Below, piece after piece: positions 59,903-63,937 of a stretch of 64,000 bases of DNA. Both the position numbers and the translations under genes were made by a program. The stretch comes from Paramesorhizobium salinisoli. GTDB taxonomy: Bacteria > Pseudomonadota > Alphaproteobacteria > Rhizobiales > Rhizobiaceae. The DNA is taken from positions 248,001-312,000 of the forward strand of contig NZ_QOZG01000003.1 of assembly GCF_003335045.1 (NCBI RefSeq), given 5' to 3'. Numbering within the stretch: position 1 is the first letter of the stretch; each line of letters starts with the position of its first letter. Below the pieces are notes generated by a model that worked only from the letters and a program-made list of their open reading frames with translations, made no database searches and had not been told where the DNA came from.

Positions 59903-61068
59903 TCGTCAGTTCCTGTCGTATGGAGGGAAGAAGAACCACCTGTGTTGCTCTCGGGATCCTGCCCGCGCCATGCGGGCATCAGGATGCGAAACGTGGTGCG
60001 CCGCGACTGTGAATCGCATTCGATCACGCCACCATGATCGCCAACGATCTTGGCGACCAGGGCCAGGCCAAGCCCGGAGCCATTGGGCTTCGTCGTAACG
60101 AACGGATCGAACAGATGCGGCAGCATATCGGTCGGCACGCCAGGCCCGCTATCGTGCACGCAGAATTCGAGCGGCAACGCCACCCGGTCCCGCACGCCGG
60201 GCACGGAAAGCCGGATGCCCGGGCGATAGGCTGTCGAAAGCGTAATCTCGCCCGGCTCCTCATGGCCGATCGATTCGGCGGCATTTTTGACGAGGTTGAG
60301 AAAAATCTGCACCAGCTGGTCGCGGTTCGCAAAAACCGGCGGAAGCGATGGATCATAGTCCTCGTTGAATTTGATATGGCTGGCGAAGCCGTTGCGGGCG
60401 ATGGCCTTTACATGATCGAGCACGACATGGATGTTGACCGCCTCGCGGTCGATCGGCCTTTCATCGGAAAAGACCTCCATGCGATCGACCAGCGAGACGA
60501 TCCTGTCGGTCTCATCGGTGATCAGCCGCGTCAGCGAGCGGTCCTCGTCGCTGACGACGCTTTCGAGAAGTTGCGCAGCGCCACGAATGCCGGAGAGCGG
60601 GTTCTTGATCTCATGCGCCAGCATCGAGGCCAGGCCTGTGACCGAGCGCGCGGCTCCGCGGTGCGTCATCTGCCGGTCGAGTTTTTCGGCCATCGACTTT
60701 TCCTTGAAAAGAATGACGACAGAACCCGGAAATTCGTTCACCGGCGTTACATAGATGTCCACCACACGATCGTTGCCAAGCTTGGGCGAAGAAATATCGA
60801 CGCGGTATTCGTTGACCGGCGAAGGGTTGGCCCGCACCTGCTCGACCAGCGCCTGAAGCGGGCTGCCGAACGGCAGAAAGGACTGCAACTTGTTGCGCGC
60901 CAGGATGTTTGAGCTCGAACGAAAGAACTGTTCCGCATCGGCATTGGCAAAGGAGATATAGCCTTCGGGATCAACCATGATGACGGGGTGGCTGATCGTA
61001 TTGAGCACGATCGAGGCTACCGTTGCCTCTGGTCTGTCTGATAGCACGGAACTTTCGCGCGCGTTCAT
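59899..61068 (-). CDS. ntrB: Nitrogen sensor kinase NtrB
   Basis: The 389-residue cytoplasmic kinase has an N-terminal PAS domain ([27 protein letters not shown] region, residues about 24-50), the HisKA motif [21 protein letters not shown], and a HATPase domain with VHDSGPGVP and [14 protein letters not shown]. It controls NtrC phosphorylation in response to PII protein. The ATG at 61068 overlaps the dusB stop by one base (TGATG); a GTG directly before it is also in frame. Confidence 0.95.
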
Positions 61069-62072
61069 CACGCCACCTTCTTTAGTTCGGTTGATCGCGA
61101 GCGGGAAAGGGCCTGCCCGATTTTCTTGATGACAATCGACGAATTGTTTTCGGTCATGATTGCGGCGCGTTCGGCGGCGGAGAAATCGCTACCGGCATGT
61201 CGGTCCAGATACCAGCCGAGATGCTTGCGCGCGTGACGGGTGCCGGTGGAAGCACCATAATGATCGAGCATTGCTTCATAATGCGCGATCACATAGTCGC
61301 AGATTGTGTCCGGTTTGGCGGCCTGTTCCGACAATCCACAGGCAATCATGCCGGCAAGCCAGGGTTGGCCGTAGCTCCCTCGGCCGATCATCACCGCATC
61401 CGCGCCGGATCGAGCCAGAATTTCCTCGGCATCGGCCACGGACAACACATCGCCATTGGCAACCAGAGGGATACTGACCGCCTGCCGTACGGCGCGAATG
61501 GCGTCCCAGTCCGCCTTGCCTTCATAGAACTGGCAGCGTGTGCGGCCATGCACCGTCACCATCCGGATCCCGCCATCCTCGGCCCGGCGGGCCAGTTCCG
61601 GTGCGTTGATGCTGTGTTCGTCCCAGCCGAGCCGCATCTTCAAGGTGACGGGCACACGAACTGCCGCGACGGTTGCCTCGATGAGGGTCATCGCATGGTC
61701 GAGATCGCGCATCAGGGCCGATCCGGAATAGCCGCCCGTAACCTTCTTGGCGGGGCACCCCATGTTGATGTCGATGATATGCGCGCCTTCGGCTTCGGCA
61801 ATGCGGGCTGCCTCACCCATCCAGTAAGCCTCCCGCCCGGCGATCTGCACCACATGCGTATCGAGCCCCTCGCCTTTCAGGCGCATCAGGCTTTCGCGGT
61901 CGCGCGAGCAAAGCTCCGCGCTCGCCACCATCTCCGAAACCACCATCCCGGCGCCCGCCGCCCAGGCAAGCTTTCGGAAGGGCAGATCCGAAACACCCGA
62001 CATCGGCGCGAGAAACACCCGGTTGCGCAAACGGACATCGCCTACGTATAAAGCTTCACCCAGAATGGTCAC
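61068..62072 (-). CDS. dusB: tRNA-dihydrouridine synthase DusB (NifR3)
   Basis: The 334-residue flavoenzyme reduces uridines in tRNA D-loops. It has the FMN-binding start [20 protein letters not shown], the catalytic cysteine in [26 protein letters not shown], the [15 protein letters not shown] motif and GRGSYGQPW. It is the first gene of dusB-ntrB-ntrC, the classical nifR3-ntrBC operon. The ATG at 62072 gives the standard start. It is divergent from ispDF. Confidence 0.96.
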
Positions 62073-62255
62073 GACGGCTGTGCCTGTTTCATGTGCATTT
62101 TTCCTGTCGCACAGTGTTTAGACAGGATGATGTCTTTCCGCAAGGAAAAGCAGCGTTGACAACGGATAGTATTGATTCCTTCTGGTGTTTGGACGCCACA
62201 GGCATTAATCGCAACTCGCTCTAGCATCAAATCATGACACAGAAGGCATAGGACC

Positions 62256-63449
62256 ATCAAAGTAGCAGCCGTCATTGTCGCAGCCGGCCGGGGGGAACGG
62301 GCGGGACAGAGCACCGAAGGGCCGAAGCAATATCGCCGGATCGGCGGCGAAGCCGTGCTTTCGCATACGCTGCGGGCGTTTCTCGACTGTTCACATGTTG
62401 GCCTGATCGTATCTGTAATCCATCCGGAAGACCGGCATCTCTACGAACAGGCGACCGGCGCGGTTGGCGCACGGGCCATCACCGTTATCGGCGGTCCGAC
62501 GCGGCAGGAATCGACCCGGCTGGGTTTACTGGCGCTGATCGAGCATCAGCCGGATTTCGTCCTGATTCATGATGGCGTGCGGCCGTTCATCGCGCAGGAC
62601 TTGTTGCAGCGCATCGTCCAGACGCTGCATCCCGCAATCGGCGTGCTTCCGGCTCTCGCGGTTTCCGATACACTGAAGCAGGCGGGCCCGGATGCGCATG
62701 TGGTTGCCACGGTGCCGCGCGCCGGGCTTTACGCCGCGCAGACGCCGCAGGCGTTTCCGTTCGCACCCATTCTCGACGCCCATGAAGCCGCTTATCGCGC
62801 CGGGCGCTCGGATTTCACCGATGACGCCGCCATCGCCGAATGGCATGGCCTCGCCGTACGGGTAGTCGAGGGCTCGGCCGACAACACGAAACTCACCTGG
62901 GCGAAGGATATCGAAATGGCCGACAAGCGTTTTGCGCAGGATCATGGCGGATTTCCCGATATCCGGACCGGCAATGGCTATGATGTCCATGCCTTCGAGC
63001 CAGGCGATCATGTGACGCTGTGCGGCGTGGAAATACCCTACACATTGAAACTGTCAGGCCATTCGGATGCCGATGTCGGCTTGCATGCGCTGACGGATGC
63101 GTTGCTTGCCACGCGCGGCGCCGGCGATATCGGCACGCATTTCCCGCCGTCCGATCCGCAGTGGAAGGGCGCTGCCTCGCGCATCTTCGTCGAACATGCC
63201 GCGAGTATTGTCCGGCAGGCCGGCGGACGCATCGCCAATGCGGATATCACGCTGATTTGCGAAGCGCCGAAGATCGGCCCGCATCGCGAGGCGATGACCG
63301 CCTCCCTGTCGCAGATGCTGGGTATCGCTCCGGATCGCGTTTCGATCAAGGCGACCACCAATGAGAAGCTTGGCTTCGTCGGGCGCGGCGAAGGCATCGC
63401 CGCGATCGCCACGGCGACCGTCATCTATCCCGGCGAGGTGCCGGAATGA
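62256..63449 (+). CDS. ispDF: Bifunctional IspD/IspF of the MEP isoprenoid pathway
   Basis: The fused enzyme has an N-terminal cytidylyltransferase ([41 protein letters not shown]) and a C-terminal cyclodiphosphate synthase ([33 protein letters not shown]), typical of alphaproteobacteria. No ATG, GTG or TTG lies in frame between the stop at 62235 and a GTG at 62355, which would remove the nucleotide-binding glycine loop. I set the start at ATC 62256, which has AGAAGG 9 bases upstream. Alternatively an ATG at 62234 would read into this frame if one base near 62249 were absent. Confidence 0.88.
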
Positions 63450-63937
63450 GCCTGATAGCCGAGGAAAAAGCCAAGGCGGTGCTGGATGCCTGCCGCCGGG
63501 ACGGTATCATGCTGGCGACGGCAGAATCATGCACCGGCGGCCTTATCGCAGCCGCGCTGACCGACATAGCGGGATCGTCCGATGTGGTCGATCGCGGCTT
63601 TGTGACCTATTCCAACGCGGCCAAGGAAGAAATGATCGGCGTCCCCTCTCCGCTTATCGCGGAGTTCGGCGCGGTATCGAAGGAAGTGGCGCTGGCCATG
63701 GCCGAGGGCGCGCTCGCCCATTCGCGCGCTGGCATATCGGTCGCAGTCACGGGTATTGCCGGCCCCGGCGGCGGCACGCCGGAAAAGCCAGTGGGCCTCG
63801 TCCATATCACAGCAATGCGTGAGAGCGGTACGGTGCTTCACCGCGAATGCCGCTTCGGCGACCTAGGACGCGACGGCATCCGCCATGCAACGGTGATTGC
63901 GGCGCTCGACCTGATGCTCGAAATCCTGGCCGCCTAA
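63446..63937 (+). CDS. pncC: Nicotinamide-nucleotide amidase / CinA C-terminal family
   Basis: The 163-residue protein is a stand-alone CinA C-terminal domain. It has the signatures [35 protein letters not shown] and [19 protein letters not shown]. PncC deamidates nicotinamide mononucleotide to nicotinate mononucleotide in NAD recycling. Its ATG overlaps the ispDF stop (ATGA), so it is coupled to it. It is convergent with the RatA-like gene, and the two stop codons overlap. Confidence 0.92.

Follow-up and report, generated by a model that had tools for sequence, protein, structure and literature searches.

Sequence comparison points to an AUC start codon for ispDF in Paramesorhizobium salinisoli and to AUH starts in related genera

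Abstract

Translation of the ispDF gene of Paramesorhizobium salinisoli most probably starts at an AUC codon. The codon (ATC, positions 62256..62258, forward strand) lies in a 64,000-nucleotide stretch of DNA, which was analysed as a whole and is termed the window below. As judged from sequence comparison, it appears to be one species' form of an AUH start common to the window's genus, the Brucella/Ochrobactrum-like group, the group g112 and Bartonella (ATH denotes ATT, ATA or ATC, and AUH the same codons in RNA). The assignment draws on the presence of ATH at the same place in relatives, on the onset of three-base periodicity, and on ATG or TTG codons in the same alignment column in related lineages. 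Very likely, ispDF thus represents a lineage-wide new member of the class of AUH starts that includes infC and pcnB.

Materials and methods

The family search covered 394 genomes, 385 of which contained a match. Further sampling took in the genera of G111, G011 and G021, selected genomes and named genome contigs. The DNA flanking ispDF was collected for 235 loci, and 231 of them were parsed (the remaining four are L021, L030, L198 and L201); L038 is cut at a contig edge. Groups are designated g1 (the window's genus), g17 (Brucella/Ochrobactrum/Falsochrobactrum, assigned through L232 and L233), g107 (Bartonella, assigned through L092/L206), g112 and so forth. All six genomes of g1 were read, as were 34 of 35 from g17 (G482, with a partial match, was left out) and 60 of 61 from g107 (G425 had no match), a genus that is larger than our draw. 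The outgroup loci are near relatives rather than a random draw and include the best 80 of 572 matches from one search and the best matches from others.

The start column was defined as the codon four positions before the loop anchor, or five positions in g17, whose genes carry one extra codon. An IspDF tree was calculated from 81 chosen rows with the start left out. In this tree, the outgroup loci L060, L077 and L102, which have ATH at the corresponding offset, were scored as canonical since an ATG lies upstream. Shine-Dalgarno (SD) pairing was scored against an assumed anti-SD tail and compared with shuffled sequences.

A few genomes carried irregular copies of the gene. At G441:C1:433285-434474 (g107), IspD and IspF occur as two adjoining pieces in separate open frames, perhaps because the gene is split or its frame is broken. 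The ispDF matches of G466 and G471 (both g17) and of L164 (g7) have internal stops or fall into several pieces; completeness is 85% for G466 and 69% for G471, and both may hold sequencing errors.

Results

The ispDF reading frame of the window

The frame running from the ATC codon to a TGA at 63447-63449 (62256..63449, forward strand) encodes a bifunctional IspD/IspF protein of 397 amino acids, an isoprenoid synthesis enzyme that is normally essential. Translated from position 62256, the product matched NCBIfam NF006899 over its full length with 531.8 bits (cut-off 417), and both Pfam domains, IspD (PF01128) and YgbB (PF02542), scored above their cut-offs. Structures of IspD/IspF have been solved. 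A search of the same genome returned this gene as the single match. The glycine-rich loop of IspD, 12 residues long, is encoded at 62271..62306 on the forward strand, as recognised from the translation and from relatives with a similar loop.

The original prediction had stated that this frame lacks an ordinary start codon ahead of the loop, and a recheck of the sequence bore this out. Between the in-frame TGA at 62235-62237 and the loop there is no ATG, GTG or TTG, and the first such codon, the GTG at 62355, lies beyond the loop. The TGA is followed by CAC AGA AGG CAT AGG ACC, then by the ATC, and then by AAA GTA GCA GCC and the codons GTC ATT GTC GCA GCC GGC CGG GGG GAA CGG. The AGAAGG stretch at 62241-62246, for which an ideal distance had been claimed, sits 9 nt upstream of the ATC. 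Three explanations had been offered for this arrangement: a rare ATC start, an ATG at 62234 followed by a one-base shift at GCA-TAG, and a sequencing indel. Only the first agrees with the data presented below.

An ATH codon is kept at the start column in relatives

All six species sampled from the window's genus have ispDF, and all six carry ATH at the start column: ATC in the window, ATA in L002-L005 and ATT in L006. The column reads ATT in 34 of 34 loci of g17 and in all seven of g112, and ATH in each of the 60 Bartonella loci (52 ATT, 8 ATA). Group g7 has ATT in three of four loci and ATG in the fourth (L165), and the single g6 locus has ATT. Canonical codons at the same column were found in g79 (ATG in 4/7; the rest are CTG, CCG and one locus cut by a contig edge), g94 (TTG, 1/1) and g88 (ATG, 1/1). 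At the same offset, 8 of the 95 outgroup loci have ATH. The comparison with relatives that had been proposed as a check yielded a conserved ATH, which is not ATC in every case.

Many of these genes lack a canonical start codon altogether. From the last in-frame stop to the loop, no ATG, GTG or TTG occurs in five of the six species of the window's genus; in the sixth, L002, the nearest one lies 30 codons before the loop. An in-frame canonical start is missing from 69 of the 231 parsed loci (66 distinct places), and every one of the 69 has ATH at the column. They comprise 51 of 60 loci in g107, 5/6 in g1, 4/7 in g112, 2/34 in g17, 2/4 in g7 and the one locus of g6. Another four occur among the 110 loci outside these six groups. 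Three of them, L040, L092 and L167, duplicate loci that are in the count (the identical pairs are L017/L167, L040/L233 and L092/L206), and the fourth, L087, is a further Bartonella. No such locus was found among the 95 outgroup loci outside the clade. In several species, then, no canonical codon is able to give the full-length protein.

These counts bear directly on the proposal that a sequencing or assembly indel hides an ordinary in-frame ATG. The source genome is a draft assembly of 187 contigs, in which such an error might occur. Yet five of six species in the genus and 66 distinct places overall share the missing start, and separate errors would not cluster at one codon. We therefore consider an indel highly improbable as the cause. 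Since ATH is kept at the column across relatives, a conserved start of an unusual kind seems a better explanation than a sequencing error.

The exact position of the start is uncertain by one or two codons in L002 and in some loci of g107 and g17, because ATH codons stand in a row there. Two or three successive ATH codons are present, for example, in L002 (g1), L134-L139 and L141-L143 (g107) and L111 (g17). The codons flanking the column are nevertheless not rich in ATH: the one directly upstream is ATH in 1/6 loci of g1, 8/34 of g17, 13/60 of g107 and 0/7 of g112. On the IspDF tree, the column must have switched between ATH and other states at least five times. We claim no ancestral state for the column, because many forks of the tree are weakly supported. 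The plasmid collection, among the matches listed, contained sequences of at most 62.5% identity and no close relative with an annotated start.

Coding begins at the start column

We compared nucleotide diversity at codon positions 1/2/3 on both sides of the column. In g17, the eight codons upstream gave values of.34/.39/.41 and the 14 codons downstream.08/.09/.47. The corresponding values were.47/.49/.48 and.10/.03/.35 for g107 and.44/.50/.38 and.00/.02/.23 for g1. In all three groups, three-base periodicity thus sets in at the ATH column, although the count was anchored there without gaps, and upstream indels also flatten the signal. In the last four codons before the column, diversity at position 3 did not exceed that at position 2 in g17 (.23/.46/.42) or g1 (.17/.40/.35) and exceeded it only slightly in g107 (.35/.42/.44). 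The five distinct sequences of g112 vary too little for periodicity to be judged.

Codon choice at the column was compared with that at other isoleucine columns. Among the 32 distinct genes of g17, 17 columns consist of isoleucine codons throughout; of these, the start column alone never changes its third base, being ATT in a group in which ATC is the commoner isoleucine codon elsewhere (57%). Such invariance holds in g17 only: the column varies between ATA, ATC and ATT in g1 and between ATT and ATA in g107 (23 ATT and 7 ATA in 30 genes). A Bartonella subset, 'eu', had been picked for ATT at the column, so that its invariance arises by construction, and it was not used as evidence. In g1, ATA accounts for 4/6 codons at the start column versus 4% at the other all-isoleucine columns. 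In g112, 12 of 24 all-isoleucine columns are invariant, and the group is hence uninformative in this respect.

Where a canonical codon does exist further upstream, the ATH might be an ordinary isoleucine codon within a longer protein. An upstream in-frame ATG, GTG or TTG is present in 32/34 loci of g17, 9/60 of g107 and 3/7 of g112, and in L002 the frame stays open back to an in-frame ATG at a distance of 84 nt. Against translation from these codons, there is no three-base periodicity upstream of the column, and the third base of the ATT is invariant in g17. The upstream codon, moreover, differs between species and is missing in L118 and L233, and in L234 a TAG separates the ATG from the ATT, albeit in a genome (G471) of low completeness. 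An upstream start is accordingly very unlikely in these species, and it cannot apply to the window because the TGA at 62235 closes the frame.

Ribosome-binding stretch and leader

In the window, the AGAAGG at 62241..62246 (forward strand) forms a weak SD-like stretch 9 nt before the ATC. Its pairing score was -4.2 kcal/mol, and 11 of 100 shuffled sequences were equally good, which makes it usable but weak. The same motif occurs in L002-L004, and L005 has AAAAGG. For g1 as a whole, pairing before the ATH averaged -3.95 versus -3.03 for shuffled sequences, with a median of 38% of shuffles equally good. A scan with a six-base anti-SD gave -2.1 versus -1.9 for this genus, and the longer anti-SD tail still leaves it weak. 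Pairing was far stronger in Bartonella (mean of -7.4 kcal/mol versus -1.7 shuffled) and in g112 (-7.2 versus -2.9). In g17, it amounted to -5.1 at the ATT versus -2.7 shuffled (median of 19% of shuffles equally good), and the nearest upstream canonical codon averaged -1.7 in 31 sequences. The SD stretch is therefore strong in g107, g112, g7 and g6, moderate in g17 and weak in the window's genus, and it is here that the argument for an ATC start in the window itself is weakest.

The leader of the window contains an out-of-frame mini-ORF, ATG ACA CAG AAG GCA TAG (62234..62251, forward strand), which terminates 4 nt ahead of the ATC. In L003-L005, the mini-ORF is longer, and its TAA overlaps the ATA start as ATAA. 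A mini-ORF ending at the start codon is thus found in four of the six species and is absent in L002 and L006. According to the second of the proposed explanations, translation would begin at the ATG at 62234 and enter the ispDF frame through a programmed one-base shift at GCA-TAG-G. Shifts by +1 at stop codons are known elsewhere (RF2), and the window has both the ATG and the TAG (62249-62251). The ATG and the ATH, however, are 22 nt apart in the window but 23 nt apart in L003-L005, so that different shifts would be required, and L003-L005 have no TAG at this place, their mini-ORF ending in TAA at the ATA codon. The nearest ATG lies 84 nt away in L002 and 79 nt away in L006, with none within 78 nt. 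Neither an upstream start of fixed phase nor a shift site is conserved in the genus. Because the leader ATG is out of frame by differing amounts among the species, we reject both the frameshift, which is extremely unlikely, and a one-off indel.

The same mini-ORF could serve another purpose in the window's genus, in that ribosomes translating it might re-initiate at the adjoining ATH. Such a process would be compatible with an AUC start and concerns only how the codon is reached. Its presence in four species, the ATAA overlap and the short spacing of 4 nt in the window would fit re-initiation; the two species without the mini-ORF do not, and in the Bartonella-like loci an SD stretch that pairs strongly stands immediately ahead of the ATH, which favours direct initiation there. 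We regard re-initiation as unlikely.

No match to a known RNA element was obtained at E<=1 in the leader region (61950-62450). The leader did not appear structured: it folds worse than most shuffled sequences, with z values of +2.26 for 62190-62300 and +0.74 for 62226-62290. A simple consensus scan of 62060-62300 found neither a sigma-70-type promoter nor a terminator (0.2 of each expected by chance), and the ispDF promoter was consequently not located.

Upstream, the divergent dusB (nifR3) gene occupies 61068..62072 on the reverse strand, its start being provisional (TIGR00737, 341.5 bits, cut-off 293.3), so that ispDF receives no ribosomes from a gene upstream. Downstream, a cinA/pncC-type gene (63446..63937, forward strand; PF02464, 175.1 bits) begins within the end of ispDF, its ATG and the ispDF stop codon overlapping as ATGA (63446-63449). 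Through this overlap, cinA could share any effect on ispDF.

Discussion

According to PMC5472188, experimental characterisation is available for very few non-canonical start codons. An AUH start is known from infC, in which it is ATT in E. coli and ATC in Streptomyces (PMC5472188) and AUA in S. aureus (PMC13009471). In all 14 genomes examined here, the place where infC should start reads ATT CGY CGA (loci L236-L249; that of the window's genome is L243), and in ten of the 14 the examined stretch has no in-frame ATG, GTG or TTG. The two genes would be alike in having an AUH start codon. They differ in that infC encodes the very factor that discriminates its own start, which results in autoregulation, whereas ispDF encodes a metabolic enzyme and not IF3, and therefore any effect of IF3 on ispDF would be one-way.

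Outside infC, a start of the AUH class has a precedent in E. coli pcnB, whose AUU start reportedly holds expression down (cited in PMC1780047 and PMC13009471). In 2007, infC and pcnB (printed pncB) were cited as the two cases in which AUU had been shown to initiate (PMC1780047, excerpt). The genes pcnB and ispDF are unrelated, and the ispDF codon persists in several genera, with ATG or TTG taking its place in related lineages. Streptomyces sigR starts with GTC and is repressed by IF3 (PMC5472188, excerpt); this case was shown experimentally, whereas the AUH start of ispDF is proposed here from comparing sequences. For S. aureus, the excerpted text of PMC13009471 describes conserved non-canonical starts in cvfC1 (AUU) and ccpN (AUA), which go along with extended SD motifs and a lower yield of protein. 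Bartonella ispDF resembles these genes in pairing a strong SD stretch with ATT; cvfC1 and ccpN, however, have other functions and belong to another phylum, and the window's genus has only a weak SD stretch. Among the titles and abstract beginnings of the open-licence literature, we found no paper linking ispDF with a non-canonical start, and a corrected annotation for Brucella or Bartonella may already exist.

A plausible course of ispDF expression can be outlined from these observations. The start lies behind a noncoding leader with the weak AGAAGG ribosome-binding stretch, and the initiator tRNA would read the AUC at 62256 as methionine. Initiation of this kind would presumably keep IspDF output low. 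In other bacteria, IF3 represses AUH-type start codons; IF3 may likewise set the amount of IspDF, and infC, which encodes it, reads ATT in these lineages. It is conceivable, and we put this forward tentatively, that selection keeps the AUH start of ispDF as a control, by which the synthesis of IspDF and, in the window, of cinA via the ATGA overlap would follow the ratio of IF3 to ribosomes together with infC.

The start codon also has consequences for annotation. A gene finder restricted to ATG, GTG and TTG would start the window's protein at the GTG at 62355, thereby losing the nucleotide-binding loop, and could choose a false upstream codon in relatives. Judging from the beginnings of abstracts, the IspDF enzyme is being discussed as an anti-infective target. 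The AUH start of ispDF would be a rare start on a metabolic gene that has lasted across several genera, and the question of IF3 targets beyond infC becomes directly testable. If control through IF3 proved true, the supply of isoprenoids would be coupled to the condition of the translation apparatus in the window's genus as well as in Brucella- and Bartonella-like bacteria.
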